Shown: one piece after another, positions 13,354 through 28,476 of the stretch
How the letters are laid out: each line of letters begins with the position of its first letter
How positions within the stretch are numbered: the first letter of the stretch is position 1
Origin: Oceanicola sp. S124
GTDB taxonomy: Bacteria; Pseudomonadota; Alphaproteobacteria; Rhodobacterales; Rhodobacteraceae
Reading direction: 5' to 3'
DNA length: 43,044 nt
Assembly: GCF_000220565.1 (NCBI RefSeq)
Contig: NZ_AFPM01000186.1
Span: 1 to 43,044 of the forward strand
Program-made: the position numbers and the translations under genes
The notes under the pieces: model-generated
What the model was told of the DNA's origin: nothing
The model's input: the letters and a program-made list of their open reading frames with translations, nothing else
Databases searched by the model: none

Positions 13354-14358
13354 TCAGCCTGCGCGGCGGCCGACGAGGGCCATGGCGCGTTGGATCATTC
13401 CGGCTCCGGCGGTGGCCAGAACCGCGGTGGCGGTCAGGGTGGTGACGGTCTTGGCGGGTTCCTCGACCAGCGGGCGCAACGAGGCGGCAAGGCTGGCGCG
13501 GGCGCGGGCCACGGCCTCGGGCGCATTGCCGGCGCTGATCGCGCGGCGGGCGAGGTAGCGCAGCTGGTAGGCGCGAGCGGCCGGGGCCTCGCGGGCGAAG
13601 AACTCGGGCGCAATCGGGGTCAGCTTCTCGACCATGCGTTCCCAGAAGGCGAACTGCAGGTCGATCCCGGCCGACAGACCGCCGGGGGCGACGCGGTAGC
13701 GGGTCAGCAGGCCGGGCACGCCCTCGATCTCCCAGTCGGTGGTCAGGGCGAGGCGCAGCCAGCATTCGATGTCCTCGGACTGGCGGAAGCTTTCGTCGAA
13801 CCACCAGTCGCGCGCCGTCTCGCCCTCGGGGCGGAAGGCGATGGCATCCAGCGCGGCGCGGCGGATCACCGGAGACGAGCCGTTGCCGATCGGGTTGCGC
13901 TTGAAGACATGGGCGGCGGTGATCCCGGTGAGGCGCGGTTGCTGGCTCAGTCCGGTCGGCTCGCTGTCGGTGTCGATCAGCTCGGATCCCGAGAAGGAGA
14001 TGCCGACCGCCGGCGCGCTGTCCAGGTGGTGGACATGGGCGGCCAGCTTTTCCGGGCGCCAGAGGTCATCGGCATCGCAGAAGCCGATGAAGGTGCCGCG
14101 GGCGTGGAAGATGCCGGTGTTGCGCGCCCCGGCCAGGCCGCGGTTCTTCTGGCGGATCAGCCGCAGGCGCCGGTCCGGGACGCTGCGCGCGATCTCGGCG
14201 GTGCGGTCCGACGAACCGTCGTCGATCACCAGCACTTCGAGATCCTGGAAGGTCTGCGCCAGCAGGGCGGTCAGGGTTTCTTCCAGGGTGGCTTCGACAT
14301 TGTAGCTGGGCACCACGATCGACACGCGCGGGGCGGTGGAGGCGATGATATGCGGCAT
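13354..14358 (-). CDS. GT2 family glycosyltransferase
   Basis: A 334-aa inverting GT-A glycosyltransferase. Family motifs: RVSIVVPSYN (~10-19), LVIDDGSSD (~43-51), NRGLAGARNTG, and FCDADDLW with the DxD metal-binding motif (~95-102). The C-terminal half (AREAPAARAYQLRYLARRAI) resembles that of the neighbouring GT2 protein, so the pair may be paralogues. ATG 14358 follows GGAGACC; the frame extends upstream into the previous gene but without support. It should act on the cytoplasmic face in repeat-unit assembly. Confidence 0.9.
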   Translation of the reverse strand: MPHIIASTAPRVSIVVPSYNVEATLEETLTALLAQTFQDLEVLVIDDGSSDRTAEIARSVPDRRLRLIRQKNRGLAGARNTGIFHARGTFIGFCDADDLWRPEKLAAHVHHLDSAPAVGISFSGSELIDTDSEPTGLSQQPRLTGITAAHVFKRNPIGNGSSPVIRRAALDAIAFRPEGETARDWWFDESFRQSEDIECWLRLALTTDWEIEGVPGLLTRYRVAPGGLSAGIDLQFAFWERMVEKLTPIAPEFFAREAPAARAYQLRYLARRAISAGNAPEAVARARASLAASLRPLVEEPAKTVTTLTATAVLATAGAGMIQRAMALVGRRAG

Positions 14359-14401
14359 GTGGCAGGTCTCCGGTCGAGTGGTTTGCAAAGTCGGGGCGGG
14401 A

Positions 14402-15316
14402 TCAGTTTGCAAAGAGCGATTTGCGCAGCTGCGCGGGCAGCAGGGGCGACATCAGCGCGCCCCCAAGGGTCAGCGCGCCACGGCGGCGATCCGAGAACCA
14501 GCCGAAGGGGCTTGAGGCGAGGCCCCGCAGCGCCAGCCCCAGGGCCTGGCGGACCGGGGCGCCGGTGCGCAGGGCGCGGCGGGTCAGGTAGCGCAGGTGG
14601 ATCGCCTCGTCCCGGCGCGAGGGGCGCCGGTTGTAGCGCGCGGCGGTGACCAGCGCGGCAAGGCGTCCGGCGGCCATGGCGGGCAGGTCCGCCGAAAGGC
14701 CGGTGACCGAGGTGCGATACCAGACCTGGACATCGTCCAGCCCGGCAAGGCGATGGCCCTCGCCGACGAGGCGGATCAGGAACTCGAGATCCTCGTTGTG
14801 CACGATGCGGGGATCCAGCCCTCCGGTCAGCACGAAGGCATCGGACCGCACCGCAAGGTTTGACATGGTGCAGACCGGGTTCTCGCCCAGCAGGTCGGCG
14901 ACCGTGACATCCCGGGGCAGGACGGTGCTGACGCTGCGCGCGCCGTTGCGGTCGAAGAAGGCGACGCGGCCATAGCAGGCGGCCAGGGTCGGATCGCGGA
15001 AGGCCACGGCCAGAGATTGCAGCTTGTGCGGCAGCCAGAGGTCATCGGCATCGCAGAAGGCCAGGATCTCTCCGCCCGCCTCGCTGATGGCCATGTTGCG
15101 CGCCTCGGAGGGGCCCTTGCCTGTGTTGCGCATCAGCCGGAAGCGGCGGTCGCGGGCGCCGTAGATGGCGGCCACCCGCAGGCTGTCATCCTGCGAACCG
15201 TCGTCGATGATCAGCGCTTCCCAGTCGGTGAATGTCTGGGCCAGCAGGCTGTCGAGGGTGGCAGCCAGGGTGGCAGCGGCGTTGTAGCAGGGGATGACAA
15301 TCGAGAAGAGGGGCAT
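14402..15316 (-). CDS. GT2 family glycosyltransferase
   Basis: A 304-aa GT-A glycosyltransferase with MPLFSIVIPCYN (1-12), IIDDGSQDDS (~36-45), SEARNMAISEAGG and FCDADDLWLP (DxD). HNEDLEFLIRL marks the acceptor-side catalytic region. Its ATG shares one base with the flippase stop (TGATG), so translation is coupled. Shared C-terminal elements (HLRYLTRRALRTG) with the gene at 13354-14358 suggest an old duplication with a new specificity. Confidence 0.9.
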   Translation of the reverse strand: MPLFSIVIPCYNAAATLAATLDSLLAQTFTDWEALIIDDGSQDDSLRVAAIYGARDRRFRLMRNTGKGPSEARNMAISEAGGEILAFCDADDLWLPHKLQSLAVAFRDPTLAACYGRVAFFDRNGARSVSTVLPRDVTVADLLGENPVCTMSNLAVRSDAFVLTGGLDPRIVHNEDLEFLIRLVGEGHRLAGLDDVQVWYRTSVTGLSADLPAMAAGRLAALVTAARYNRRPSRRDEAIHLRYLTRRALRTGAPVRQALGLALRGLASSPFGWFSDRRRGALTLGGALMSPLLPAQLRKSLFAN

Positions 15317-16557
15317 CAGGCAAGCTCCATCCGGCGCAGGGTGGTGAAGGCGGGGGCGACGGTCGGCAGGGCCGCGCCGATCTGGGTGAGGACGGCGACC
15401 ACGAGGTAGCCGGTGGCGATTGCGGTCAGCCCGTAGGGTGCCAGCAAGGCTGTGTTGGCCATCAGGGCGAAGGTCATCATCGCGGTGGCGAGGAACTCGG
15501 TCTGGGGCTTGTCGTGGGCGCGCAGCCACTGGGCGGCGGCGGACCAGACGACACCGGGAATGGCTGCCAGGCAGAGGATCGAGACGACGAGGTCGATGTC
15601 CCCCCAGCCTGCGCCGAAGAGCAGCGGCACGTAGAGCGGCGCGGCCAGGGCCTGCAGGACGACCACCGGGGCAATGATCGCCACCGACAGGATCAGCGAG
15701 CGGCGCAGCGCGGCAGCCCGGTCGGGGGCGGTGACCAGATGCGGGAAGAGCACGGTGGCGAAGGCCTGGCTGAACGAGGTGGCAAGTCCGAGCCCGGCGT
15801 TGAAGGCCATGAAGTAGAGGCCCAGCACCTCGGTGCCCAGCATGGCGCCGATGATCAGCTTGTCGGCCTGCAGGCGCAGTGCCTTGACGATCTCGACGCC
15901 CAGAACGGCCCAGCCATAGGTGAGGAAGGGGCGCAGCGGGGCGGGGGCGACGCTGCGGTCGGGCTTCCAGGGGTGCAGGCGGCGCATGGCGATCAGCCAG
16001 ACCGGCGCGGCGAGCAGGCGCGGCAGGATCAGCGCCATCGGGCCGGGGAAGACCAGCGCGAGGACGGCCGAGGCGACATTGGCCGCCACCACCTGCCCGC
16101 CGGCGATGGCGGCGGTCTGCTTCATCTTGCCGGCGCGCATGGCGAGGGCGCATTGCACCAGCCCGCCCGGCATGAAGAGGTACTCTCCGGCCAGTACCGC
16201 GATCAGGGCAAAGAGCATGGCATCGCCGGTCATCGCCCAGACGACGGCGCCGGCGGCGCATTGCAGGGTGAACAGGCCGAGGCACCAGGTCCAGAAGATC
16301 CGGTGCGCGCTGCGGGTGGTGGCGGCCAGGTCGGCCTCGCGCGCGGCGATGATGCGCTGGCCGACGCCGTTCTCGGTCAGCGATTTCACGATGTCGGCGG
16401 CGGCCAGTGCCGCGGCGGCAAGGCCGATGGCGCCGGCATCCATGGTGCGCGCCACAGCGACGACGACCAGCAGGCGCGATCCCTTGGCTGCCGCCTCGGA
16501 GAGGCAGTAGGCAAGAAGATGCGCAGCGAAGCTGCCGGTGCGGAAGGCGCGAAACAT
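15316..16557 (-). CDS. Lipopolysaccharide/exopolysaccharide flippase (Wzx-like, MOP superfamily)
   Basis: A 413-aa inner-membrane protein with about twelve hydrophobic helices and the family-typical ADIVKSLTENGVGQRIIAAR segment near the start and LQADKLIIGAMLGTEVLGLY in the middle. Proteins of this family flip undecaprenyl-linked repeat units to the periplasm. The start ATG 16557 has only a weak ribosome binding site (AGATCCC). It is the first gene of a four-gene minus-strand operon (flippase, GT2, GT2, GT4), divergent from the Wza-like gene across a spacer with a candidate operator. Confidence 0.88.
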   Translation of the reverse strand: MFRAFRTGSFAAHLLAYCLSEAAAKGSRLLVVVAVARTMDAGAIGLAAAALAAADIVKSLTENGVGQRIIAAREADLAATTRSAHRIFWTWCLGLFTLQCAAGAVVWAMTGDAMLFALIAVLAGEYLFMPGGLVQCALAMRAGKMKQTAAIAGGQVVAANVASAVLALVFPGPMALILPRLLAAPVWLIAMRRLHPWKPDRSVAPAPLRPFLTYGWAVLGVEIVKALRLQADKLIIGAMLGTEVLGLYFMAFNAGLGLATSFSQAFATVLFPHLVTAPDRAAALRRSLILSVAIIAPVVVLQALAAPLYVPLLFGAGWGDIDLVVSILCLAAIPGVVWSAAAQWLRAHDKPQTEFLATAMMTFALMANTALLAPYGLTAIATGYLVVAVLTQIGAALPTVAPAFTTLRRMELA

Positions 16558-16663
16558 GGGATCTGACTTTCGGCTGGCGTCTGGATGGGCCCAGATTACC
16601 TTGACCACGGGCGGCACGTCCTTCGCGCCCAAGGAGAGTGCAGGGGCGCAACAGGCGGAAACC

Positions 16664-16681
16664 CCTATCCTTTCGGATGGC
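16664..16681. promoter_or_regulatory. Exopolysaccharide-locus dyad, copy A
   Basis: CCTAT-CCTTTCGG-ATGGC, in the 208-base divergent spacer between the flippase operon and the Wza-like gene. It matches the reverse complement of copy B (21322-21339) over CCTAyCCTTTCGGAT. A further GGTATAGGGT half-site lies at 16720-16729. Candidate operator for the LuxR-type regulator at 23114-23752; the match is seen, the binding is inferred. Confidence 0.5.
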
Positions 16682-16765
16682 CGGCGCCTCGGCAGGGCGC
16701 TGGACGGCTGAATCCCGGCCGGTATAGGGTGACCTCGACCCGCCAGAGCAGATCCGGACCCGACA

Positions 16766-17998
16766 GTGACCTCAATCCGCCGCTCCTTCCTGCCCCGTGG
16801 CGCCTCGATGGCGCTGCTGCTCGCTGCCTGCTCGGCCCCGCCCGAGGCAGGCAACCTCGAGCCGGTGGCCGAGGGCACGGCCTACCAGGCCCAGTACCGC
16901 GCCTTCGAGGTGAGCCGTGCCGAGACCGCCCTGCTGCGCGCGCCGGCGATGAATGCCGCGAGCTGCCTGCCGGCGGCCGGGGACCTGGGCGAGGCGGGCT
17001 CGAAGGTCGGGCCGGCGACCCCTGTGGCGCTTGAGGGCGAATTGCTCAGCCGGGGGGACCTGGTGCAGCTGCGCCTGCCCGAGGATGAAACCTTCAGCGG
17101 CGAATATGTCATTTCGCGCGATGGCACCCTGAAGCTGCCCTATCTGGCGCCGGTCGAGGCCCAGGGCCGCAGCACCGATCAGGTCGCCCGCGAGATCCGC
17201 TCGGCCCTGGTGGCCGGCGACTTCTACGGCGCCGAGCCGCAGCTTTCCCTGCTGCTGATGGACCTCGCGCCGGTCCGCGTGGCGGTGCGCGGAGCCGTCT
17301 TCGAGCCCCATGCGCTGGATATCGGCGGCGTGTCCGGTGACACGGTCGACAGCCGCCGACAGGCCGCGCTTGGCGCTTCGACCGAGGCTCGCAACCTGTC
17401 TGTCGCGCTGCGCAGTGCCGGTGGCGTGCGCCCGGATGCCGATCTTTCGGCGGTGCGCCTGACCCGGGCCGGGGTCAGCTACACGCTGGACCTGCGCGGC
17501 ATCGTCGAGGGCCGGGACGCGCCCGACGTGGTGCTGGTGACCGGAGACGAGATCTTCGTGCCCTCGCGCCAGTGCTTCCAGGATGCGCTGATGACGCCCA
17601 GCCCGATCTCGCCGCCGGGGATATCGCTCTACCTGTCGAACCTGACCCAGCCGGCGTCCGGCAATGCGCCCTCGGCCATCGGACAGACCGTGCGCGAGCT
17701 GCCCTATGGCGCGCGCTACATGCAGGCCGTGGTGGATGCAAACTGCGTCGGTGGGGCCCGGGCCTCCAGTGCCGCGCGATCGGCGGCGCTGTTCACCCGC
17801 AATCCGATGACCGATGTGTCGGCGGTGATCGAACGGCCGGTGGAAGAGATGCGCCAGCGGGCCGACCGGGACGACTACGATCCCTACCTGCTGCCCGGCG
17901 ATGCCATTGCCTGTTACGACAGCGGCGTCACCAACCTGACCGAAGTCGGTCGGGTGCTGGGCGTGCTCGGCGCGGTCGCGGTGCTGGGACGGGACTGA
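16766..17998 (+). CDS. Polysaccharide export outer-membrane lipoprotein (Wza-like)
   Basis: A 410-aa exporter. The N-terminus has basic residues (R5, R6, R11) and a lipobox LLLAAC with Cys22, so a lipoprotein is predicted. The polysaccharide-export domain runs ~90-175 (LLSRGDLVQLRLPEDETFSGEYVISRDG, then GTLKLPYL), followed by SLBB-like repeats (~178-275, VRVAVRGAVFEPHAL). The start is GTG 16766; the internal ATG at 16808 would give too short a signal. It should form the outer-membrane channel for the polymer. The C-terminal part (~300-410) is less typical for Wza and has several Cys (C271, C324, C386). It is transcribed alone. Confidence 0.88.
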   Translation: MTSIRRSFLPRGASMALLLAACSAPPEAGNLEPVAEGTAYQAQYRAFEVSRAETALLRAPAMNAASCLPAAGDLGEAGSKVGPATPVALEGELLSRGDLVQLRLPEDETFSGEYVISRDGTLKLPYLAPVEAQGRSTDQVAREIRSALVAGDFYGAEPQLSLLLMDLAPVRVAVRGAVFEPHALDIGGVSGDTVDSRRQAALGASTEARNLSVALRSAGGVRPDADLSAVRLTRAGVSYTLDLRGIVEGRDAPDVVLVTGDEIFVPSRQCFQDALMTPSPISPPGISLYLSNLTQPASGNAPSAIGQTVRELPYGARYMQAVVDANCVGGARASSAARSAALFTRNPMTDVSAVIERPVEEMRQRADRDDYDPYLLPGDAIACYDSGVTNLTEVGRVLGVLGAVAVLGRD

Positions 17999-18035
17999 GG
18001 CGCGCCGTCCGGCAACAGGCACCGGCTTGCAGGAC

Positions 18036-18074
18036 GGGCCTTTTCAGCATGGCCTGGGAAAGGCCCTGATGCTG
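18036..18074. terminator. Hairpin between convergent export and kinase genes
   Basis: The 119-base convergent gap holds overlapping stems, GGGCCTTT / AAAGGCCC and CAGCAT-GGCCT / AGGCC-CTG-ATGCTG. Either fold could end both transcripts. There is no strong U-tract, so bidirectional termination is a proposal. Confidence 0.5.
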
Positions 18075-18117
18075 GGCCAGAGACATGTGTCAAAGGAGCG
18101 CCCCGCGTCGGCAGGGG

Positions 18118-20709
18118 TCAGGCCACCGCCAGGCGCTTGTCGATCGCGCGGAGCTGGTCGAGGCTGTCACGCCAGAGCGGTTCCAGCGCCGCGAGTTCAT
18201 CTTGAGCCACATCCTGGTTGCGCTTGGTCTTGGTCTCGATGTCGGCAAGAGCGCGGCGCAGGGCAGTCAATCCGAAGGTACCGCAGGTGCCGGCGCAGGC
18301 GTGGGCCAGGCGGGCGATCTCGCTGCGGTCGCCGGGGCCGGAAACCAGGGCGGCGATGCAGCCATCGGTCTCGGCGGTGAAGCGTTCCAGCAACTTGCGG
18401 CCGGTTTCGACGCCGGTGCCGGCCAGAAGGGTCTCGATCTGGTCGCGGTCGATCAGGGGCGCTGCGACATCGGCCTCCTGCGGCTCGGCACCGGGCCCGG
18501 ACAGCCGCCCGCCCACGATATCGTTCAGGCAGCGGGCAAGCACCTTGCGGTCGATCGGCTTGGGCAGGGTCTGCGAAATGCCGACGGCGCGGAACCGCTC
18601 GATCTCTTCCGGCAGCGCATGGGCGGTCAGGGCGACGATGGGCACATCGGCTGAGGCGCCATTGCCGGCGCGGATGCGGCAGGCGGCTTCGGCGCCGTCC
18701 ATGACCGGCATGGAGATATCCATCAGGATGACATCGAAGCGCTGCGCATTGGCCCACTCCACGCCGGCCTGGCCGTCGACGGCCTCGGTCACCGTGTGGC
18801 CATCGCTTTCCAGCATCTCGCGGGCGATGAAGCGGTTGATCTCGTTGTCCTCGACCAGCAGCACTTCCATCGGCACGGCGGCGGGGGCCTGGCTTTCGGA
18901 GCCGACGGCCTCGTCCTGGGCGGCGGCTTCGGAGACAGGGATGCGGATCCAGAACAGGCTGCCGTCGCCCGGCTCGCTTTCCGCGCCCAGTTCGGCATCC
19001 ATCACCTTGGCGAGACGCCGCACGATACCCAGCCCCAGCCCGGTGCCCCCGGCCTGGCGCGCGTAAGAGCTGTCGAGGGTCTCGAAATCGTTGAAGATCC
19101 GTTCGATATCGCCCTCGGCGATGCCAATGCCGCTGTCGATGACGCGGAACTCGATCTGGTTGCGTTCGGCGCCCAGCATCTCGACCTCGATGTCGATGCC
19201 GCCGCCGCGGGTGAACTTGGCGGCGTTGCTGACCAGGTTCAGCAGGATCTGGCGGATCTTGCGTGAGTCGCCGGTCAGCCGGTCGCTGGCAGGGCCGACC
19301 CAGGACCAGCTGAGGTCATTGCCGTTGCTGCTGGCCAGGGTCGCGGTGCTCTCGACCACCCCGTCCATCAGACGCGAGACCGAGAAGGGCCGCGACTCGG
19401 CCTTCATCTTGCCGGCCTCGAACTTGGCCAGGTCGAGCACGTCGTTGACCAGACCCAGCAGGTGCTCGCCCGAGCCCTGCATCAGGTCCAGCAACTCGCT
19501 CTGGGTCTCGTTCAGCTCGTGGTCGCGCAACAGCTGCATCGAGCCGAGCAGGCCGTTCAGCGGGGTGCGCATCTCGTGGCTCATCACCGCGAGGAATTCG
19601 GACTTAGAACGCTCTCCGGCCAGGGCGCGGTCGCGGGCCTGGGTGATCATTTCTTCCTGGGCCTTCCGCAGCGAGATGTCGCGGACGAAGGAGACGTAGA
19701 GATGTTCGTCGTCGGCAGCCCGATCGAAGGAGACCTCGGCCGGGAAGCGGCGTCCAAAGCGGTCGACCGCGATGACTTCGTGCGGGTGCAGGATGTGGTC
19801 GCCGCGTTCGCGCGCCTTCATCACGTTGCGCACCACGTTCTGCAATTCGTCCGCCTGGTCATTGGTCATCAGGATGTCGCGGACCCGGCGGCCGATGGCC
19901 TCGTCGCGGCGATAGCCGAAGATACGCTCTGCGGCAGAGTTGTAATCCCGGATGACGCCCAGGTCGTCGGTCACCACGATGGCGTCCAGCGAGGTCTCGA
20001 CGATGGTGTGCATGCGGTTGGCGCGGCCCTCGGCCAGCTCGGCGTGCTCGCGGGCTTCGCGGGTCAGCCGCATCAGCACCAGGGCGATCAGCGACAGGCC
20101 GGCGATGAAGGCGAAGAGCACCGCCGCGATCAGGCTGAGCTTGCGGATCAGGCTGGCCTCGTTGGCGTCGGCAACGCGCACGAAGGCATCCAGAGCGGCC
20201 AGCGAGAAGGCCCGCACGGCAACTCCGGTCGCGGCCGCATCCTCGGCGATGGCGGGCAGGGCGGCGGCGAGCTTGGCGTCATCGCCGTCGATCAGCGGGA
20301 TCGTCCGGTCGAGGAAGGCGACGACCTCCCCGCGGGGGATCGTCAGGGCCTGTTCGCGTTCGATGCTGTCGAAGGGTTCGGAGAAGTCGACGGTGTTCAT
20401 CCGGCTGTAGAACACGTCGAAGCGCAGGCGGGTGTCGCGCAGGGCCCGCTGCACGACATCGGGCGCACTGCCGTCCTCGACCGCTTCCTGCGCTGCCTGG
20501 AGTTGCAGGCGGAAGTTGAGGAATTCGACATCGGCCTGGGACAGGCTCCATTGAAGCCCGTCCGCCTTGGATGAGGTAAGACGCTCGATCTCGAAGAGCA
20601 CCGTCCAAGCCGTCCCTGCCACCAGCGCCACGCAGAGTGCCAAGGTGACGATTGCCGCCATTGGTCGCTGCCACAGTGCGGCCCCGGAAGTCTTCAGGCT
20701 CGGGCTCAT
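18118..20709 (-). CDS. Hybrid sensor histidine kinase (PAS-HisKA-HATPase-REC-Hpt)
   Basis: An 863-aa inner-membrane sensor. Order: TM helix ~17-39, helical periplasmic domain ~45-185, TM ~190-214, PAS ~230-345, HisKA with SHEMRTPLNG (phospho-His378), HATPase with N-box (N491/N495), DSGIGI (~525-530) and GGTGLGLGI (554-562), receiver ~615-730 with phospho-Asp664 and Lys717, and a C-terminal Hpt domain with LAHACAGTCGTFG (His803). The Hpt motif has Ala where Lys usually follows the His by three. It can run His-Asp-His steps within one chain and needs an outside receiver. ATG 20709 has GAGGGA. It follows the periplasmic SUOX-fold gene by 29 bases, probably one transcript. Confidence 0.94.
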   Translation of the reverse strand: MSPSLKTSGAALWQRPMAAIVTLALCVALVAGTAWTVLFEIERLTSSKADGLQWSLSQADVEFLNFRLQLQAAQEAVEDGSAPDVVQRALRDTRLRFDVFYSRMNTVDFSEPFDSIEREQALTIPRGEVVAFLDRTIPLIDGDDAKLAAALPAIAEDAAATGVAVRAFSLAALDAFVRVADANEASLIRKLSLIAAVLFAFIAGLSLIALVLMRLTREAREHAELAEGRANRMHTIVETSLDAIVVTDDLGVIRDYNSAAERIFGYRRDEAIGRRVRDILMTNDQADELQNVVRNVMKARERGDHILHPHEVIAVDRFGRRFPAEVSFDRAADDEHLYVSFVRDISLRKAQEEMITQARDRALAGERSKSEFLAVMSHEMRTPLNGLLGSMQLLRDHELNETQSELLDLMQGSGEHLLGLVNDVLDLAKFEAGKMKAESRPFSVSRLMDGVVESTATLASSNGNDLSWSWVGPASDRLTGDSRKIRQILLNLVSNAAKFTRGGGIDIEVEMLGAERNQIEFRVIDSGIGIAEGDIERIFNDFETLDSSYARQAGGTGLGLGIVRRLAKVMDAELGAESEPGDGSLFWIRIPVSEAAAQDEAVGSESQAPAAVPMEVLLVEDNEINRFIAREMLESDGHTVTEAVDGQAGVEWANAQRFDVILMDISMPVMDGAEAACRIRAGNGASADVPIVALTAHALPEEIERFRAVGISQTLPKPIDRKVLARCLNDIVGGRLSGPGAEPQEADVAAPLIDRDQIETLLAGTGVETGRKLLERFTAETDGCIAALVSGPGDRSEIARLAHACAGTCGTFGLTALRRALADIETKTKRNQDVAQDELAALEPLWRDSLDQLRAIDKRLAVA

Positions 20710-20738
20710 GCGGTGTCCCTCGTGCAGAGGCCCGGCGA

Positions 20739-21248
20739 TCAGTCGATGACGCGCAGGCGGTCCAGTTGCCAGACACTTCTAAAATGAATCACGTCCGTGC
20801 GATAGGCCGAGGACACGTCATAAGGATAAACGATCCAGAGCGGACCCTTCTCACGCACTGACATCGTCTGGCCGTGGTTGCGATAGGCCAGGATCGGATA
20901 ATCCTGATCCCAGCCGTCACGCGGAATGGTGACCGCGTAATCGTTGATGGCTGTCAGATCCAGCGCCTTGGCGTCGGGGGCGACGGCATCGACCAGGATC
21001 TGAAGCGGCACACCGGTGAATTCCTGCATGCCGTCGGTCCAGTTGGTGGTGGTGTCGATCTCGGCAACCGGAAACGCCTCCAGATCGGCGAGGGTGAACT
21101 CGGCCAGAACCGTCCCTTCCTCGTCAAGCACGGTGAGCAGGATCGGTTCCGCATCCTGTGCAAGGGCCGGCAGAGCAGGGGCGGCGAAGCTTGCGGCGAT
21201 CACGGCAAGAGCCGAGAGTCGCTTGGCGAGGCGTGGCAGTGCGAACAT
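20739..21248 (-). CDS. Periplasmic SUOX-fold (molybdopterin oxidoreductase-like) protein without cysteine
   Basis: A 169-aa secreted protein: signal peptide ~1-30 ending LPALA-QDAEP, then a small domain resembling the molybdopterin-binding fold of sulfite-oxidase relatives (FTLADLEAFP, TTTNWTDGMQEFTGVPLQIL, GPLWIVYPYD). No Cys exists anywhere in the protein, so the molybdenum-ligating Cys of true enzymes is absent and catalysis is unlikely. Lying directly before the hybrid kinase gene, it is best read as a periplasmic ligand-binding partner of that sensor (inference). Candidate operator copy B lies 74 bases upstream. The fold assignment is moderately sure. Confidence 0.75.
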   Translation of the reverse strand: MFALPRLAKRLSALAVIAASFAAPALPALAQDAEPILLTVLDEEGTVLAEFTLADLEAFPVAEIDTTTNWTDGMQEFTGVPLQILVDAVAPDAKALDLTAINDYAVTIPRDGWDQDYPILAYRNHGQTMSVREKGPLWIVYPYDVSSAYRTDVIHFRSVWQLDRLRVID

Positions 21249-21321
21249 GATGCGAATCCTTTTTTACCGGTGAGTGTCGCATAAAACTCTAGAGTCTCCT
21301 TCGGGGCATCCGAAGACTTAA

Positions 21322-21339
21322 CCTATCCGAAAGGGTAGG
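21322..21339. promoter_or_regulatory. Exopolysaccharide-locus dyad, copy B
   Basis: CCTAT-CCGAAAGG-GTAGG, 74 bases upstream of the SUOX-fold protein start (minus strand). Read in reverse it is CCTAC-CCTTTCGG-ATAGG, nearly the same as copy A. Its position suits control of the sensor operon. Confidence 0.5.
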
Positions 21340-21408
21340 ATCTGCTATTTTCTCAACGCGTACCATTCGGCCTGCCCGGGAAACCGCCGGGGCCGTGGGG
21401 TCGGGCGC

Positions 21409-22800
21409 TCAGTAGGCGCCACGGCCGCCGACGACCGCCCGCGCGGTCAGCGCGAGCAGCATCATGTCAAGGAAGATAGAGCGCGAGCGGACATAGGCCA
21501 GATCAAGGTCGACCATCTTGTCGAAGCCGATCTCTGCCCGGCCCGAGACCTGCCACAGACCGGTCAGCCCGGGGCGGACGGCAAGCCGCCCAAGGGCCCT
21601 GGCCGGATAGGCCGCGACCTCTTCGGGCAGGGCCGGACGGGGGCCGACGATGGACATGTCGCCCTTCAGCACGTTGAGGATCTGGGCCAGTTCGTCGATC
21701 GAAAGGCGGCGCAGGATCCGACCGACGCGGGTGATCCGGGGATCGTTGCGCGCCTTGAAGCAGATGCCCTCGCGGTCCGAGCTTTGCAGCAGCGCGGCCC
21801 GCCGTGCCTCGGCGTCGCGATACATCGAGCGGAACTTTAGCATGGTGAAAGGCTTGCCGTCGCGCCCGATGCGGGTCTGGCGGAACAGCACCGGCCCGCC
21901 GCTTTCGAGGCGGATCGCCAGGGCGGTCACCAGCAGCAGCGGAGAGAGGAGCACCAGCGCCACCGAGGCGATCAGCAGGTCGAAGGCACGGCGGGCGGCC
22001 TCTCCGGCGGGGCGCTGTGTGCGGGCGTCGCGACGGGCGCGGATCAGGAACTCGACATTGCCGATCAGGTAGCGGCGGGCCATGCGGCGCGGCTCCATCG
22101 CCAGGCGCCAGACCCATTCGGCCTTCGCCTTGCGGACCAGGGCGGGGGCCCGCTGGACCCGACCGGCAAGAAAGTCGAACAGCGCGCCGACGCCCATCGA
22201 CAGACGGGGCGACAGCCGGGCCGCGTTGCGGGCCAGCCAGGTGTCCTGGAAGGGAACGCCGAGGGCGACCAGCAGGATGTCGGCGCGCGAGGCATTGATC
22301 TGGGCGATGGCCGCAGCCTCGTCCTTCATGCCGTCATAGCCGTCACGGGTGCCGGCGATCTTCAGCCCCGGGATGTCGCGTTGCATCCGCAGGGCCGCGC
22401 CCTCGGCCACGCCGGGCTGCCCGCCCAGCAGGAAGACCGAAAGGCCGCGGCGGGCGGCCGCCGCCAGCAGCCGGGGGCAGAAATCGGTGCCGTTGAGGTT
22501 CTCGGTGAAACGCTTCTCTTGCATCCGGGCGGCCAGTTCGACGCCGATCCCGTCGGGCAGGATCATGTCGGCCGTCACCAGCGCGTCGCGATAACCGGCG
22601 TCCTTCGCGGCGACATTGCCGCAATGGGCATTCAGGAAGGCAACGCGGGCGCGCCGTCCCGGCAGCATCAGGCGTGCAATGACGGCCTCGGTCCCGGCAT
22701 CCACGATGCCGAGGCCGAACAGGCGGATCCGGGGCAGCACCGGGCTACCCTTGACCGGGCGGGCATCTTGCAGATGGGCAAGCTGGGTCGGGAAATTCAT
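21409..22800 (-). CDS. Fusion of WecG/TagA/CpsF glycosyltransferase (GT26) and WbaP-type priming sugar transferase
   Basis: A 463-aa two-domain protein. Residues ~25-235 match GT26 (FLNAHCGNVAAKD ~56-67, LPDGIGVELA with the likely catalytic Asp83, LLVALGVPFQDTWLARN). Residues ~268-463 match the bacterial sugar transferase family: a membrane helix ~275-297, KFRSM (322-326), RVGRILRRLSIDELAQILNV, SIVGPRP (383-389) and RPGLTGLWQVSGR (409-421). The C-terminal domain should load the first sugar phosphate onto undecaprenyl phosphate and the N-terminal domain add the second sugar. GGAGGA precedes ATG 22800. It appears monocistronic, divergent from the LuxR regulator. Confidence 0.93.
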   Translation of the reverse strand: MNFPTQLAHLQDARPVKGSPVLPRIRLFGLGIVDAGTEAVIARLMLPGRRARVAFLNAHCGNVAAKDAGYRDALVTADMILPDGIGVELAARMQEKRFTENLNGTDFCPRLLAAAARRGLSVFLLGGQPGVAEGAALRMQRDIPGLKIAGTRDGYDGMKDEAAAIAQINASRADILLVALGVPFQDTWLARNAARLSPRLSMGVGALFDFLAGRVQRAPALVRKAKAEWVWRLAMEPRRMARRYLIGNVEFLIRARRDARTQRPAGEAARRAFDLLIASVALVLLSPLLLVTALAIRLESGGPVLFRQTRIGRDGKPFTMLKFRSMYRDAEARRAALLQSSDREGICFKARNDPRITRVGRILRRLSIDELAQILNVLKGDMSIVGPRPALPEEVAAYPARALGRLAVRPGLTGLWQVSGRAEIGFDKMVDLDLAYVRSRSIFLDMMLLALTARAVVGGRGAY

Positions 22801-23113
22801 CTGGGTCCTCCGAATGTGCGTTTCGTTACATTCAGATGACCGAGGGGGCCTTCCGCGCTCAATCGCGCGGGGGGCGAGGACGGCGGGACTTTCGCAGAGC
22901 CCGCTCCCTCGAGGAAGAGGTGGCGTCGATCCGCCGGTATGGGCCTTGATCCCGAAGGAGGGGGGCATTATCCCTAAGAATATTCAGCATTCTCCTTTCG
23001 GGTTCCCCGATTTGGTCACATTCTTGGTGTGTTGTTAACCAGTGACCGACGTCTTGATTCGAAATGACGGGAATTGAACAGTGATTACGGCTAGCCCCCT
23101 GCAGGAGACTTCT
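22801..23113. promoter_or_regulatory. Divergent control region, GT26-WbaP gene / LuxR gene
   Basis: A 313-base spacer with no gene that I can support. It holds CCGGTATGGGCCTT (22934-22947), nearly repeated before the Wzz-like gene (23823-23836), a CTCCTTTCGGG block (22993-23003) sharing the CCTTTCGG core of dyads A and B, and nested inverted repeats GGTCAC/GTGACC (23014-23019 and 23042-23047) around TTGGT/AACCA. These sit 66-100 bases before the regulator start and may be its own operator. Confidence 0.4.
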
Positions 23114-23752
23114 GTGCGTAATATGGCTTCTGGTGGCATGCGGGTGCTGATCGCGGATGATCATGATCTTCTCCGGGATACCCTTCAGGCATTCCTGAAT
23201 GCCGAGGGCGGCTTCGAAACCGTGACCGTCGCCTCTTATGACGAGGCCGTGGAACGGGTCGAACGGGACGACGACTATGATCTTGTGCTGCTCGACTACT
23301 CCATGCCCGGCATGTCCGGCATCGAGGGCCTGCAACGCATGATGGAGCAGACCGGCCACAAGCGTGTCGCCATCATCTCGGGTACCGCCAGCCGCGAGAT
23401 CGCGGAAGAGGCGCTGGCCATGGGCGCCGCCGGTTTCCTGCCCAAGACCCTGTCGGCCAAGTCGCTGATCAACGCCGTGCGCTTCATGGCCATGGGAGAG
23501 CAGTACGCCCCGCTGGAATTCATGCGCGCCACCGCCGACGAGACGTCGAACCCGCTGGCCGACAAGCTCTCGCACCGCGAGTTGCAGGTGCTGGAGGGGC
23601 TGACCCAGGGCAAGTCCAACAAGGAAATCGCCCGCGATCTGGATATCCGCGAGCCGACGGTGAAGCTGCACGTCAAGACGCTGTATCGCAAGATCAACGC
23701 CTCGAACCGCACCCAGGCGGCGATGATCGCCAAGGAAGCCGGCCTCTTCTGA
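23114..23752 (+). CDS. LuxR/NarL-type response regulator
   Basis: A 212-aa two-domain regulator. The receiver (~9-125) has acidic D15/D16, phospho-Asp61 (LVLLDYSMPGMSG), Ser89 and Lys111 (FLPKTL). The C-terminal LuxR HTH (~152-210) reads LSHRELQVLEGLTQGKSNKE and TVKLHVKTLYRKINASNRTQ. GTG 23114 is chosen because GGAG lies six bases before it; an upstream GTG at 23081 and ATG 23123 are alternatives. No kinase is adjacent, but the hybrid kinase 2.4 kb away in the same locus lacks an output regulator, so this is its likely partner. It probably controls the exopolysaccharide genes. Confidence 0.92.
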   Translation: MRNMASGGMRVLIADDHDLLRDTLQAFLNAEGGFETVTVASYDEAVERVERDDDYDLVLLDYSMPGMSGIEGLQRMMEQTGHKRVAIISGTASREIAEEALAMGAAGFLPKTLSAKSLINAVRFMAMGEQYAPLEFMRATADETSNPLADKLSHRELQVLEGLTQGKSNKEIARDLDIREPTVKLHVKTLYRKINASNRTQAAMIAKEAGLF

Positions 23753-23802
23753 CAGGAGCTCCGGCGTCTGCTTTCCCTTCTAAGGCATGACGTGTTTCAG
23801 GC

Positions 23803-23826
23803 CCGCCTATCCCGCCGTATAGGCGG
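23803..23826. promoter_or_regulatory. Exopolysaccharide-locus dyad, copy C
   Basis: Perfect inverted repeat CCGCCTAT-CCCGCCGT-ATAGGCGG; its core CCTAT-N8-ATAGG (23806-23823) has the same geometry as copies A and B. It lies 87 bases before the Wzz-like start. It also sits 50 bases after the LuxR gene within a longer AGGCCC/GGGCCT stem followed by only TTT, so a terminator role is an alternative. Confidence 0.5.
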
Positions 23827-23912
23827 TATGGGCCTTTGCGCGTTCAGGGTAACCTTGGGCGCGGCCCCGGCAGGGGGCGCGCTGCGCTAGACGGGGGGCA
23901 AGGAGATCCACC

Positions 23913-25442
23913 ATGCCCCATGCCAGCGACGACACCCCGAACGTGCCGAACGACGGCCTGCGCGAAGCCCCGAGGGGCCGCCGCCGCCTGTTGCCCCGCC
24001 TGATGCGCAAGCCGCTTGGCGCGCTGACCGCGATGCGCATCCTGCGCGGCGGGCGGGTGGCGGATGCGGGACGCCTGCCGCGTTACCTCGGCCTGTTCCT
24101 GCTGGGCGCCGGGGCGATCTGGGCGCCGATCCTGACCTATCTTGACACCGCGCCGCTGCGCTACACCTCGTCGATGTCGCTGATCCTGCCCGGCTCGGGC
24201 GCTTCGGCCTCGGTCAACCTGGCCCAGATCGGCCAGGCGTCCTCGTTTGCCAGTTCGCCCTTCAGCGGCGGGTCCGTCAGCCCGACCGAGACCTACAAGC
24301 GCCTGCTGGCCGCCGAGCGCATCGTCGACGGCGCCGCCCGCAGCATGGAGATGGAACTGCGCGCCTTCGGTCAGCCCCGGGTCGAGCTGGTCGACCAGAC
24401 CGGACTCATCCATATCTCGCTGACCGGCAATTCGCCTGAGGATGCCCGTGCCCGGGGCCAGGCGCTGCTGGCTGCCTTTTTCGCAGAGATCGACAAGCTG
24501 CGCTCGGACGAGATCGCCACCCGCGAGTTGGGCGCCGGATCGGCCATCGCGGAATACCGCGCCTCGGTCATGGCCACCCGGGACGAGATCACCCGCCTGC
24601 AGACCGAAACCGGCCTGCTCTCGCCCGACCAGTACCGGGCGCTGGTCTCGGAGACCGACGAGCTGGCGCGCAACGTGCGTGACCTTGCCGCCAAGCTGGA
24701 CGAGAGCCGCCGGGCGGTGCAGGCCCTGGCCCAGTCGCTGGGCACCACGCCGCGTCTCGCCGCTGCCGCGCTGCGCCTGCACGCGGACACGGAATTCGCC
24801 GTCCTCAACGAAGAGATGTCCCTGCGCGCCGCCGATCTGGCGCAGGCGCGGGCCCGCTACGGCGCCGCCCATCCGACCCTGTCGGGCGCCATGGCCGGTC
24901 ATGACAGCGCCCGCAGCGAGGCACTGAACCGCGCCATCCGCCTGACCGGCCTGACCGTGCCGGAGATCGAGGCGCTGGACATGTCCCACACCGGCGCCCG
25001 CACCGGGCTGCTGAGCGAGCTGGTCACGCTGGACAGCGCCCGCGCCGGGCTGGAGGCCGAGCACGCCGCCCTGGCGCAGCGCCTCGCCGAGGCCGAGGCA
25101 CGTCGCCTGGCGCTGATCGAACCGGCGGCGCGGCTGGAGGACCTGCAACGCGACTTCTCGGTCGCCGAGGCGGTCTTTGCCTCGGCCATGGCGCGGACCC
25201 AGACCAGCAAGGCTGACCTCTATGCCTCCTATCCGCTGGTGCAGGTGCTGGAAGATCCCTCCTACCCGATGGAACCCTCTTCGCCGCGCCGCAAGCTGGC
25301 GCTGGCGGCCGGGATCGCGGCGACCTTCATGTTCCTCATGGGCCTTTCGCTGGGCTGGCTGCGCCGTCCGCTGATCGACCGGCTGATCGACAGCGGCAAG
25401 AACCGCTATGGCGAACCCGGCCTGACCGTGGCGGCGGAATGA
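23913..25442 (+). CDS. Polysaccharide chain-length determinant (Wzz/GumC-like)
   Basis: A 509-aa polysaccharide co-polymerase. A basic cytoplasmic leader (1-55) precedes TM1 (~58-77), a large periplasmic region with long coiled coil (~205-430, rich in Ala, Arg and Glu), a Pro-rich segment SYPMEPSSPRRK and TM2 (~461-483). No C-terminal tyrosine kinase domain is attached, and none is encoded nearby. AAGGAG stands at ideal distance from ATG 23913. The stop overlaps the polymerase start by ATGA. It should set polymer length together with the Wzy-like and Wza-like proteins. Confidence 0.9.
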   Translation: MPHASDDTPNVPNDGLREAPRGRRRLLPRLMRKPLGALTAMRILRGGRVADAGRLPRYLGLFLLGAGAIWAPILTYLDTAPLRYTSSMSLILPGSGASASVNLAQIGQASSFASSPFSGGSVSPTETYKRLLAAERIVDGAARSMEMELRAFGQPRVELVDQTGLIHISLTGNSPEDARARGQALLAAFFAEIDKLRSDEIATRELGAGSAIAEYRASVMATRDEITRLQTETGLLSPDQYRALVSETDELARNVRDLAAKLDESRRAVQALAQSLGTTPRLAAAALRLHADTEFAVLNEEMSLRAADLAQARARYGAAHPTLSGAMAGHDSARSEALNRAIRLTGLTVPEIEALDMSHTGARTGLLSELVTLDSARAGLEAEHAALAQRLAEAEARRLALIEPAARLEDLQRDFSVAEAVFASAMARTQTSKADLYASYPLVQVLEDPSYPMEPSSPRRKLALAAGIAATFMFLMGLSLGWLRRPLIDRLIDSGKNRYGEPGLTVAAE

Positions 25443-26785
25443 GCGCGCCCGCGCCGCGCCTGTCCCCGGTGAACCCGGCCGAGCGGATGGTCTGGGTCGC
25501 CCTGCGCTGGACATGGCCGTTCTACTTCCTCGGGGCGCTCTACGTGGTCGGGCCGGTGCTGGCCTGGCTGCTGGCGGGGCTGGCGGCCTTCTGCCTCTAC
25601 TTCGGCCCGGTGATGCGCCCCGAGATGCGCCCGCGCGGCGCCATCCCGCCCGTCGTCTGGGCCTGGATGCTGGGCATGTGCGTCATGCTGGTCGCCCTCT
25701 GGGTCGGTCATCTGAACTGGGGCCTCGGCACCGGCAAGACCATCAAGAGCTCGATCGGCTGGGCCAAGGGCTGGGCGCTGCTGGCGCTCTTCCCGCTGGC
25801 CGGTGCCGTGCTGCCGATCCGGCGCGAGATCCTGATCCGCGCGCAATGCGTCGTTGGCCTCTGGACGCTGGCGCTGCTGCCGATCCTGATCGCCGCGCCC
25901 TACGCGGGTCTGCCGGAACGCATCTTCACCTCTCCGCTGAAGGCCATCGGCGGGCCGGGGCCCGAGTACTTCAGCGTCTTCTTCTTCACCTGGGATCCGG
26001 CCAGCTGGACGCCGCGCTGGCAGTTCTATGCCCCCTGGTCGCCTTTCGCGGCGCTGCTCGGGGTGCTTCAGGTCTGCTTCGCGCTGGAGGAAAAGGACCG
26101 CCGCTGGAAGTCCATCGGCATCGCGGCGGGCGTGGCGATGATCCTGCTGTCGAAGTCGCGCATGGGGATCGTCGGGCTGGTGGCCTGCACCCTCGGGCCG
26201 CGCCTGCTGCCGCTGGTGCTGCGGGGCTGGGCCTGGATGATGCTGGCCGCGCTGACCGGCTCGCTGGCGGTGCTGGGCAGCTGGCTGCTGCAGGGCCTGA
26301 AGGATGGCGTGGCCGCCTTCAAGGGCGCCCGCGCCGACAGCACGCGGGTGCGCGAGACCCTGCAGCGGATCGCCGGGGAACGCTGGCAGAACGAGGCCTA
26401 CTGGTTCGGCCATGGCACCGTCGCGCCGGGGCCGCACCTGGTGGAGTACATGCCGATCGGCTCGCATCACACCTGGTGGGGGCTGCTCTTCGTCAAGGGC
26501 CTCGTCGGGATGCTGGCGCTGCTGGTGCCGCTGGTCTGGCACACGCTGATCGTGCTGGTCGATGCGGCACGCCACCCGCGCGGGCGGCTGCCGCTCTCGG
26601 TGATCATGACCATCGTGCTGCTGTCCTTTGGCGAGAACCTGGAAATCGAGGCCTACATGCTCTGGCCGGGTCTGCTGATCCTCGGCGCCCATGCGCAGGA
26701 CGTGGCGCAGGATGCGCGACGCCGTGTCAGCCGGGCAGCACCCGGCCCCGGCCAAGCAGCCCCTGCGGGTCCAGTGCCCGCTTGA
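25439..26785 (+). CDS. O-antigen ligase/polymerase family protein (Wzy-like)
   Basis: A 448-aa inner-membrane protein with about ten hydrophobic segments and a large periplasmic loop between ~285 and 350 (GARADSTRVRETLQRIAGER, YMPIGSHHTWWGLLFVKG). The SKSRMGIVG stretch followed by a helix and the loop pattern are typical of Wzy/WaaL proteins. It starts in the Wzz-like stop codon, so the two are coupled. Within a Wzx/Wzy locus a polymerase is likelier than a ligase. Its last 59 bases overlap the 3' end of the convergent flavin dehydrogenase gene. Confidence 0.85.
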   Translation: MSAPAPRLSPVNPAERMVWVALRWTWPFYFLGALYVVGPVLAWLLAGLAAFCLYFGPVMRPEMRPRGAIPPVVWAWMLGMCVMLVALWVGHLNWGLGTGKTIKSSIGWAKGWALLALFPLAGAVLPIRREILIRAQCVVGLWTLALLPILIAAPYAGLPERIFTSPLKAIGGPGPEYFSVFFFTWDPASWTPRWQFYAPWSPFAALLGVLQVCFALEEKDRRWKSIGIAAGVAMILLSKSRMGIVGLVACTLGPRLLPLVLRGWAWMMLAALTGSLAVLGSWLLQGLKDGVAAFKGARADSTRVRETLQRIAGERWQNEAYWFGHGTVAPGPHLVEYMPIGSHHTWWGLLFVKGLVGMLALLVPLVWHTLIVLVDAARHPRGRLPLSVIMTIVLLSFGENLEIEAYMLWPGLLILGAHAQDVAQDARRRVSRAAPGPGQAAPAGPVPA

Positions 26786-28094
26786 GGGTGCCCATCAGGT
26801 CGATCTCGGCGCCGCTGCGGACCATCGCCAGATAGGGCGCCTTGTCCTGCCCCAGCCCGTGCTCGGCGGTGACCGAGCCGCCCATGCCCGCCGCCAGCGC
26901 GTTCAGCGCCGTACTGACCTCCGAGCGCCGCACGGTCTGCACGATGTAGTGCAGGTTGCCGTCGCCGAGGTGGCCGTAGATGTAGGGCCGGGCCTCCGGG
27001 TCGATGCGGGCCAGCAGGGCGCGGGCCTTGTCGAGGAAGGCGGGCAGGGCATGGGCGGGCAGGGACAGGTCATGCGGTACCAGCTCGCCCAGCCCGAAGG
27101 TATACTCCACGCAGGCTTCGCGCAGCGCCCAGAGCTGGTCATGCTCGCGCCCCGACTGGGCGACCACGATATCGCGGCACAGCCCGGCCTCGTAGGCCTC
27201 GATCAGGGCGGCCTCGAAGGCCTCTTCGCGCAGGATCTGCTGCATTCCCTGGATCTCGGCCAGAACGTAAAGCCCGGCGCCACAGGGCAGGGGCATGGTG
27301 CCAAGGCGCGCCGTGGCGCCTTCGTAGACCTCGGGCCAGATCCCCTCGTAGGCCGAGAGCAGCCCGCCGAGCCGTGCCTGCAGGTGGCGCAGCAGCGCCT
27401 GCGCCTGGGGGACATCGTCGACGGCGATCAGCGCATTGGCTTGCAGCGTCGGAGCGGGGTGCAGCCGCAGCAGGGCGCGGGTGATCACGCCATAGGTGCC
27501 TTCCGAGCCGATGAAGAGCTGATGCAGCGCGGGACCGGCGTTGTCCTTGTCCAGCCCGCGCATCGCCCTGATGACCGAGCCATCGGCCAGCACCACCTCG
27601 AGGCCCGCGACCTGCGCGCGCATCATGCCGTATCGCAACACCCGGATGCCGCCGGCATTGGTCGCCACCATGCCGCCGATGGTGGCGGTTCCGCGCGCGC
27701 CAAGATCGACGCCGAAGACGAGATCATGCGCGGCGGCGGCGGACTGCACTGCTTGCAGCGTTGCCCCGGCCTCGACCTCGATCTGCGCGGAGAGCGGATC
27801 GACCGGGCCGAGGCTCCGCATCCGCTCCAGCGACAGCACGACCTCGCCCGGGCGCACGCGGGCCCCGCCCGACAGGCCGGTCAGCCCGCCCTGCACGACG
27901 ACGGGCCGCCCCGCCGCGTGGCAGGCGGCGAGCACCGCCGAGACCCCCGCCGTACCCGCCGGGCGCAGCACCAGCGTCGGCACGCTTTCCACCCGCCGGG
28001 TGGCATCGGTGGCAAAGCGCGCGCAGGCGTCAGGATCGCTCAGCGGGGCAAGGTCATGCCCCGCGAGGGCGACCAGCAGCGGGTCGTCAGACAT
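26727..28094 (-). CDS. FAD-binding oxidoreductase, GlcD / D-2-hydroxyacid dehydrogenase type
   Basis: A 455-aa flavoprotein of the VAO/PCMH fold. The FAD part has VVVQGGLTGLSGGA (~66-79), GVDLGARGTATIGGMVATNA and GSEGTYGVITRALLRL. The C-terminal FAD-oxidase domain ends with the metal-ligand motif GHLGDGNLHY and TAEHGLGQDKAPYL. Relatives oxidise D-lactate, glycolate or D-2-hydroxyglutarate to the 2-keto acid. It is the last gene of the ten-gene operon and overlaps the RidA gene by eight bases, so the substrate is probably a 2-hydroxy acid formed from the imported compound. Exact substrate unknown. Confidence 0.9.
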   Translation of the reverse strand: MSDDPLLVALAGHDLAPLSDPDACARFATDATRRVESVPTLVLRPAGTAGVSAVLAACHAAGRPVVVQGGLTGLSGGARVRPGEVVLSLERMRSLGPVDPLSAQIEVEAGATLQAVQSAAAAHDLVFGVDLGARGTATIGGMVATNAGGIRVLRYGMMRAQVAGLEVVLADGSVIRAMRGLDKDNAGPALHQLFIGSEGTYGVITRALLRLHPAPTLQANALIAVDDVPQAQALLRHLQARLGGLLSAYEGIWPEVYEGATARLGTMPLPCGAGLYVLAEIQGMQQILREEAFEAALIEAYEAGLCRDIVVAQSGREHDQLWALREACVEYTFGLGELVPHDLSLPAHALPAFLDKARALLARIDPEARPYIYGHLGDGNLHYIVQTVRRSEVSTALNALAAGMGGSVTAEHGLGQDKAPYLAMVRSGAEIDLMGTLKRALDPQGLLGRGRVLPG

Positions 28095-28476
28095 CCGCCG
28101 CGGGTGCGCTGTCAGGGACGGTGCAGATCATGATCAGTTCGACCTTGAGGGCCGGGTTGGCCATGTTCGCCTCGAAGCAGGCGCGGGCGGGGGGCGCCAC
28201 ATCGGCCACCCATTCGTCCCAGACGGCGTTGAAGGCGGCAACCTCGCTGACGTCCTTCAGGATGATGGCGCAGAACAGCAGCTGCCCCTTGGACGAGCCG
28301 ATCTCGGCCAGCCGCGCCTCGGCCTTGGCAAAGAGCTGGCGGGCCTGTTCGGGCATCGACAGGCTGGCGTCATAGGGCGCCTCTGGCGTGACGGCGAAAT
28401 AGCCGGTGCCATTGGCGACAGTGGCGATGGAGGCACGCGCAGAGGTGCCGAAACGGGTGATCATCTGGTCCAGCAT
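28087..28476 (-). CDS. RidA family protein (reactive imine/enamine deaminase)
   Basis: A 129-aa YjgF/YER057c/UK114-family protein. Arg98 and Glu113 lie 15 residues apart, as do the catalytic Arg and Glu of E. coli RidA, so deaminase activity is plausible. ATG 28476 (MLDQMITRFG) has GAGG upstream and starts seven bases after the ATPase stop; ATG 28464 is an alternative. RidA hydrolyses reactive imines and enamines released in amine or amino-acid oxidation, which fits an operon for an amino compound. A specialised RidA subfamily rather than the housekeeping enzyme is likely from context. Confidence 0.88.
   Translation of the reverse strand: MLDQMITRFGTSARASIATVANGTGYFAVTPEAPYDASLSMPEQARQLFAKAEARLAEIGSSKGQLLFCAIILKDVSEVAAFNAVWDEWVADVAPPARACFEANMANPALKVELIMICTVPDSAPAADV

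Follow-up and report, generated by a model that had tools for sequence, protein, structure and literature searches.

An inverted repeat that recurs in the promoter regions of an exopolysaccharide (EPS) locus of Oceanicola sp. S124 (Rhodobacteraceae) is probably the operator of a NarL-type response regulator encoded in the same locus, and this reading best explains the observations as a whole. The locus lies on contig NZ_AFPM01000186.1, one contig of a 4.65-Mb draft genome, whose full 43,044 nucleotides form the window analysed here. The improved consensus of the dyad is CCTATCC-N4-GGATAGG, with two arms of 7 bp around a centre of 4 bp (7-4-7).

Three candidate operator copies occur in the window. 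Copy A (CCTATCCTTTCGGATGGC, 16664-16681) lies in the divergent spacer between wzx (flippase) and wza (polysaccharide export), 106 bp from the start of the former and 84 bp from that of the latter, and has two mismatches to the consensus. Copy B (CCTATCCGAAAGGGTAGG, 21322-21339) has one mismatch and ends 73 bp upstream of the start of a gene for a homologue of the pterin-binding protein PruR. Copy C (CCTATCCCGCCGTATAGG, 23806-23823), also with a single mismatch, is located between the regulator gene (luxR) and wzz (chain-length determinant), 89 bp upstream of the wzz start. An earlier note on this DNA, made from its letters alone, had given these same positions and had observed that copies A and B have CCTTTCGG in common on opposite strands; both statements hold. 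The geometry it proposed for all three, CCTAT-N8-ATAGG, is exact in copy C, but copy B departs from it by one base and copy A by two; the dyad is real, but takes the 7-4-7 form instead. All three spacers that were named hold a conserved site. A fourth site, before luxR, had been missed; it is decayed in the window (ATTATCCCTAAGAATATT, 22967-22984, five mismatches counted by eye) and clearer in relatives.

Conservation of the dyad in orthologous spacers

The number of copies within the window is unremarkable. CCTAT-N8-ATAGG has seven matches there at up to two mismatches, against 3.78 expected, and 9 of 100 shuffles equal this number; three imperfect copies are not significant from the window alone. 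Throughout the draft genome, the 7-4-7 form gives 152 matches at up to three mismatches and the reversed control gives 118, so that loose matches carry little meaning. Exact matches number four, as against none for the reversed control.

Orthologous loci were collected by an alignment scan with the Wzy-like protein. The best 80 of 261 relatives were used, the nearest among them being a Rhodobacteraceae metagenome-assembled genome and Pseudooceanicola antarcticus, and spacers were scored only where both flanking genes were found in the expected orientation. The spacer between the genes for PruR, which heads the sensor operon, and WecG holds a site with at most one mismatch in 59 of 67 loci and with at most two in 65. 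The corresponding counts are 37 and 52 of 67 for Wzx/Wza, 46 and 63 of 73 for LuxR/Wzz, and 18 and 38 of 76 for WecG/LuxR, where the fourth site lies. At these two thresholds 104 scrambled palindromes reach at most 1 and 4 loci in any spacer, and the reversed pattern at most 2 and 4. Among 68 representatives with less than 90% Wzy identity, sites with up to two mismatches are present in 54 of 56 PruR/WecG, 43 of 58 Wzx/Wza, 53 of 62 LuxR/Wzz and 33 of 64 WecG/LuxR spacers. All four spacers could be scored in 57 loci, of which 24 have four sites, 26 have three, 2 have two and 5 have one. An unbiased count of exact 6-bp palindromes with gaps of 0-12 ranks CTATCC-N4-GGATAG first in every one of the four spacers (23/67 for Wzx/Wza, 48/67 for PruR/WecG, 14/76 for WecG/LuxR and 29/73 for LuxR/Wzz).

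The exact 7-4-7 dyad occurs at 29 sites in 17 of 100 relatives, a first genome set that overlaps in part with the 80 loci and is not independent of them, and the reversed pattern does not occur in the same 100. It is absent from all 40 genomes searched outside the family. Twenty neighbourhoods of 20 kb around LuxR relatives contain 9, 23 and 12 sites at zero, one and two mismatches, respectively, compared to 0, 0 and 4 for the reversed control; 103 scrambled palindromes average 0.08 sites there at up to one mismatch, with a maximum of 2. The exact-site totals, like the family and genus totals below, include repeat-element dyads of the window's own genome. A chance resemblance would agree with the unremarkable count in the window. 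However, it is hardly conceivable given the retention of the dyad at orthologous spacers relative to controls, its rank among palindromes, the 29 exact sites against no reversed ones, the counts around LuxR relatives and the subset below 90% identity, and it was rejected. The earlier note had made its proposal depend on conservation in orthologous spacers, and there the motif stands out from scrambled and reversed patterns alike. The conserved sites and their places are direct observations.

The nature of the element and its link to the NarL-type regulator

Most positions in the arms of the dyad carry 1.1-2 bits, with the outermost bases down to about 0.6 bits. The flanks are mostly below 0.5 bits; a G located nine bases ahead of the dyad in the wzx/wza spacer is one of the few positions that depart from this. 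The arms are able to pair around a 4-base loop, and the dyad might instead work as RNA, in the form of a terminator or hairpin; the earlier note had suggested that copy C could be a terminator stem. The region of copy C folds with a z score of -1.91, and 10 of 200 shuffles fold equally well. However, none of 63 luxR/wzz sites orthologous to copy C has at least six T in the next 12 bases, and a terminator scan of the window region listed nothing at copy C. Mismatched arm pairs on the coding strand are A.C and G.U in ratios of 9 to 9 for the PruR operon, 24 to 11 for luxR, 13 to 15 for wzz and 15 to 8 for wza. This absence of a bias toward G.U indicates that transcript pairing is not the conserved property. 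Dyads are also placed between divergent genes, and an Rfam search of 14000-28200 returned no family match. The terminator or RNA hairpin was rejected on the mismatch types and T-tract counts, which also answer the suggestion for copy C in the negative, and a function as RNA is very improbable. As read from the aligned arms, the dyad is an element that acts as DNA and not as RNA.

A LuxR-type response regulator had been noted in the locus, and the product of 23081-23752 (forward strand) indeed has Pfam matches to a receiver domain (Response_reg) and GerE, with NarL the nearest among solved structures. An autoinducer-binding domain was not found, as Pfam gave these two domains only, and a quorum-sensing LuxR identity was rejected for this reason. 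The presence of the dyad follows that of the regulator. In a set of 149 family genomes with each genus represented once, 18 of the 60 with a LuxR match at E<=1e-55 have the exact dyad, compared to 1 of the 89 others (Fisher 1.7e-7). In 13 of these 19 dyad-bearing genomes one such site lies within 8 kb of the LuxR match. Within the genus, CCTAYCC-N4-GGRTAGG (35 sites in total, control 1) occurs in 11 of 13 genomes with a LuxR orthologue of at least 65% identity and in none of the 9 others (2.2e-4), which carry only LuxR relatives of 40-56% identity. The dyad is also found at PruR-kinase-LuxR modules that have no wza, wzz, wzy or wecG within 20 kb (L048, L049, L050, L053). Four EPS loci are without luxR (L150, L173, L097, L129). 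Two of these, L150 and L173, retain sites with 0-1 mismatches, and a LuxR of 66-69% identity is encoded elsewhere in the genome; L097, where the best LuxR in the genome reaches 56%, has lost its sites as expected, and L129 does not fit. This co-occurrence is itself observed, and based on the sequence patterns as a whole it is very probable that the regulator at 23081-23752 binds the dyad. Conservation in orthologous spacers and occurrence following the LuxR-type regulator support the earlier proposal of an undescribed operator linking the exopolysaccharide units.

Several points weigh against the regulator of the locus as the protein that uses the dyad. The co-occurrence tests take no account of ancestry, and the cut-offs used in them were chosen after the lists were seen. 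One kinase-LuxR locus (L063) has no site within two mismatches, and two members of the genus that have the orthologue (G001 and G019) lack CCTAYCC-N4-GGRTAGG and show only weaker sites near luxR. Conversely, one genome (G024) has an exact dyad and no LuxR match at E<=1e-30. L129 has no EPS sites within two mismatches, yet a LuxR of 63% identity with an adjoining exact site is encoded elsewhere in its genome. In addition, the arms are separated by 4 bp rather than the 2 bp of NarL sites, and a sigma-70-like promoter scan of 16400-24000 found none, with 0.7 expected, an outcome that carries little information.

The dyad could alternatively be the operator of another DNA-binding protein encoded elsewhere, such as a LuxR-type paralogue, with control over EPS genes and sensor module alike. 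Related regulators are numerous in family genomes (each has between 2 and 49 matches at E<=0.001), the tie between the dyad and the local regulator comes from sequence comparison, and L129 has lost its EPS sites while retaining a LuxR. However, the dyad goes with this particular orthologue and not with the family at large, given its absence from all nine genus members with only distant relatives, and it stands at the promoter of luxR itself and beside luxR in modules without EPS genes. A different binder is thus unlikely.

Half-sites, sensor and proposed circuit

Further copies of the half-site (CTATCC, at least five of six bases) occur at preferred distances from the core half-site. Their frequency peaks at +20 bp in 43% of 65 PruR-operon sites, at +21 in 26% of 39 luxR sites and, in the wzx direction, at +41 in 35% of 52 sites; in the wza and wzz directions every position stays at or below about 12%. 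The 7-base elements of NarL occur in pairs or singly and at varying distances from promoters, with tandem sites at ogt (PMC7419079). The phasing of the half-sites recalls such activator arrays, and by this analogy it seems fairly probable that the regulator activates rather than represses. The sites in the window lie 73-106 bp before gene starts, where overlap with promoters is possible, and the regulator could bind the dyad mainly as a repressor, or act in both ways depending on the promoter. Half-sites at +20/+21 or +41 speak against this through their likeness to the tandem NarL sites at ogt (PMC7419079), and predominant or promoter-dependent repression is considered improbable. In the wzx/wza spacers, a conserved block of TTGCGCC followed by CTGTCC and GGCG is present on the wzx side, between +29 and +62 relative to the dyad, and could be a promoter or a further site.

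Copy B precedes an operon for a predicted sensor pair. The pruR homologue (20739-21248, reverse strand) is followed directly, after a 29-bp gap, by a hybrid kinase gene (18118-20709, same strand). The former encodes a secreted protein with a SUOX-like pterin-binding-protein fold, modelled with a mean predicted local distance difference test score of 80.8. Its seven best Foldseek matches are PruR pterin-binding proteins (E 1.5e-12 to 2.3e-10), with sulfite oxidases from 1e-5. A 12-sequence profile matched four distinct sequences in the PDB at E<=0.001 (best 4.7e-38). Each is a PruR entry; one carries the label Oxidored_molyb in the profile search and PruR in Foldseek. Y104 and W160 are present in all 73 aligned proteins and align with the pterin-contact Tyr and Trp named for PruR in PMC13259868. 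Homology to PruR is thus directly observed. A sulfite-oxidase-like enzyme, suggested at first by a Pfam match below cut-off, was ruled out by the PruR fold and profile matches; of 72 relatives, 71 lack Cys in the region inspected.

The kinase has the architecture PAS-HisKA-HATPase-REC-Hpt from Pfam, and its best NCBIfam match is TorS, below the cut-off of that model. Its N-terminal part, which may be periplasmic as in PruR-DTB sensors, contains the WX7E motif, as WSLSQADVE in the window, and the strict pattern is found in 60 of 75 kinases. PruR-DTB pairs, in which PruR stands with a kinase of DcpA-TorS-BaeS type, are described across Proteobacteria (section 8 of PMC13259868), and from its PruR homologue and the adjoining TorS-like kinase with WX7E the sensor operon fits a pair of this type. 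The main text of that review never uses the term "response regulator". The regulator is quite likely to receive its input from this kinase, and the signal could about equally well be a pterin or something else.

In the proposed mechanism, a dimer of the NarL/FixJ-type regulator would occupy the two 7-bp arms, and the weaker downstream half-sites, which are in helical phase, would probably take further protomers. Periplasmic PruR, perhaps with bound pterin, would set the hybrid kinase, which would pass phosphate through receiver and Hpt domains to the regulator. The targets of the regulator would then be luxR itself, the operon of pruR and the kinase, and the wzx, wza and wzz-wzy units, with activation more likely than repression. 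It is quite possible, if short of probable, that in many Rhodobacteraceae genera a periplasmic pterin signal controls transcription of Wzx/Wzy-type exopolysaccharide genes in this manner, with PruR, the hybrid kinase, the NarL-type regulator and the 7-4-7 operator forming a closed, self-regulated circuit.

The other genes of the locus are as follows. The Wzx-like flippase (Polysacc_synt_3) is encoded at 15316-16557 on the reverse strand, with its start taken at the ATG at 16557, and the Wza-like export protein (Poly_export) at 16766-17998 on the forward strand. A WecG/TagA and sugar-transferase fusion occupies 21409-22968 on the reverse strand; this is the longest open reading frame (ORF), and the true start is probably further in. 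On the forward strand, the Wzz-like chain-length determinant (23913-25442) has a weak NCBIfam match and no Pfam match, and the polymerase-like Wzy protein (25439-26785), which has neither, takes its name from the earlier note and from its position.

As an EPS operator, the role first proposed for it, the dyad does precede the EPS units, but in a few close species it is also found ahead of genes that do not belong to the locus. Five species of the genus (G000, G009, G016, G017, G021) have a dyad before a VTT-domain/dsbB pair, out of 21 genomes in which that gene occurs. In the same five a dyad is found 442-457 bp before a gene for a 336-residue protein without Pfam or NCBIfam match (5 of 9), after glnB-glnA (L163 4521-4538, L169 4888-4905, L171 5108-5125, L172 4881-4898 and L192 3065-3082). 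A distance this even may mean that a long leader or a small gene lies in between. Three species of the genus have a dyad 568-579 bp before a DUF1775-PCuAC gene beside an SCO1 gene (3 of 15 matches); it lies between a CoxG gene and a small ORF heading the DUF1775-PCuAC/SCO1 copper operon (L164 4412-4429, L166 5012-5029, L170 5028-5045). Genomes with the LuxR orthologue have the dyad in 5 of 13, 5 of 8 and 3 of 10 matches to the VTT/dsbB, 336-residue and DUF1775-PCuAC genes, respectively, as against 0 of 8, 0 of 1 and 0 of 5 in genomes without it. In addition, CCTACCCCTTCGGATAGG precedes a UDP-sulfoquinovose-synthase-like gene in G011, which has two copies, and in G013 (L187 3069-3086, L188 3055-3072, L189 3022-3039). 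These occurrences appear to be additions within subclades.

Three of the four exact dyads in the window's genome, on contigs C9, C148 and C303, have flanks that are near-identical by eye, which places them in a repeated element where a perfect dyad occurs by coincidence, and they were not taken as operators. CCTATCCCTTGGGATAGG is found at 1501-1518 of L001, L002 and L004, on three contigs of this genome, within the longer near-identical flanks, and also at 5089-5106 of L167, near the 3' end of a gene in G009. Separately, a PruR-kinase-LuxR module with three dyads (L176, 1717-4822) has as neighbours a nucleotidyl-transferase gene and one for a response regulator that carries a SpoIIE phosphatase domain.

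Comparison with known systems

Among the matches listed from the open-access literature, the scope of the search (subscription journals and preprints lie outside it), titles and abstract openings revealed neither this dyad operator nor a response regulator for PruR-linked kinases. PruR, the kinase, LuxR, the dyad and the EPS genes together make a concrete proposal for the output of a PruR-linked kinase pair: the dyad supplies a candidate regulator, a DNA word and targets for a PruR-DTB sensor, all open to test. The dyad also offers a way to trace exopolysaccharide control in Rhodobacteraceae from sequence. If correct, the circuit would provide PruR-DTB sensors with an output, and their genomic targets would be marked by the dyad, among them subclade additions, for example the dsbB and copper-chaperone promoters.

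The NarL operators of Escherichia coli (PMC7419079) resemble the dyad in regulator family, in their two inverted 7-base elements and in the occurrence of tandem or single elements at promoters. They differ in sequence, in sensor and in spacing, 2 bp there (7-2-7) and 4 bp here, and the dyad is not a NarL 7-2-7 site proper, since the top-ranked palindrome of every spacer has the 4-bp gap. VarR of Nautella italica (PMC4602140) is likewise a LuxR-type regulator of a roseobacter, with a biofilm phenotype, but it has an autoinducer-binding domain where the regulator described here has a receiver domain. In the PruR-DcpA system of Agrobacterium tumefaciens (PMC13259868) a PruR-type protein is also linked to surface polysaccharide control; there the partner DcpA makes and breaks cyclic di-GMP, whereas the partner here is a hybrid kinase. 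The PruR-DTB systems (PMC13259868, section 8) share with this locus the adjoining PruR homologue and TorS-like kinase with WX7E, and the locus differs from them, as described in that section, in that the pair is associated here with a response regulator, a DNA operator and EPS target genes.

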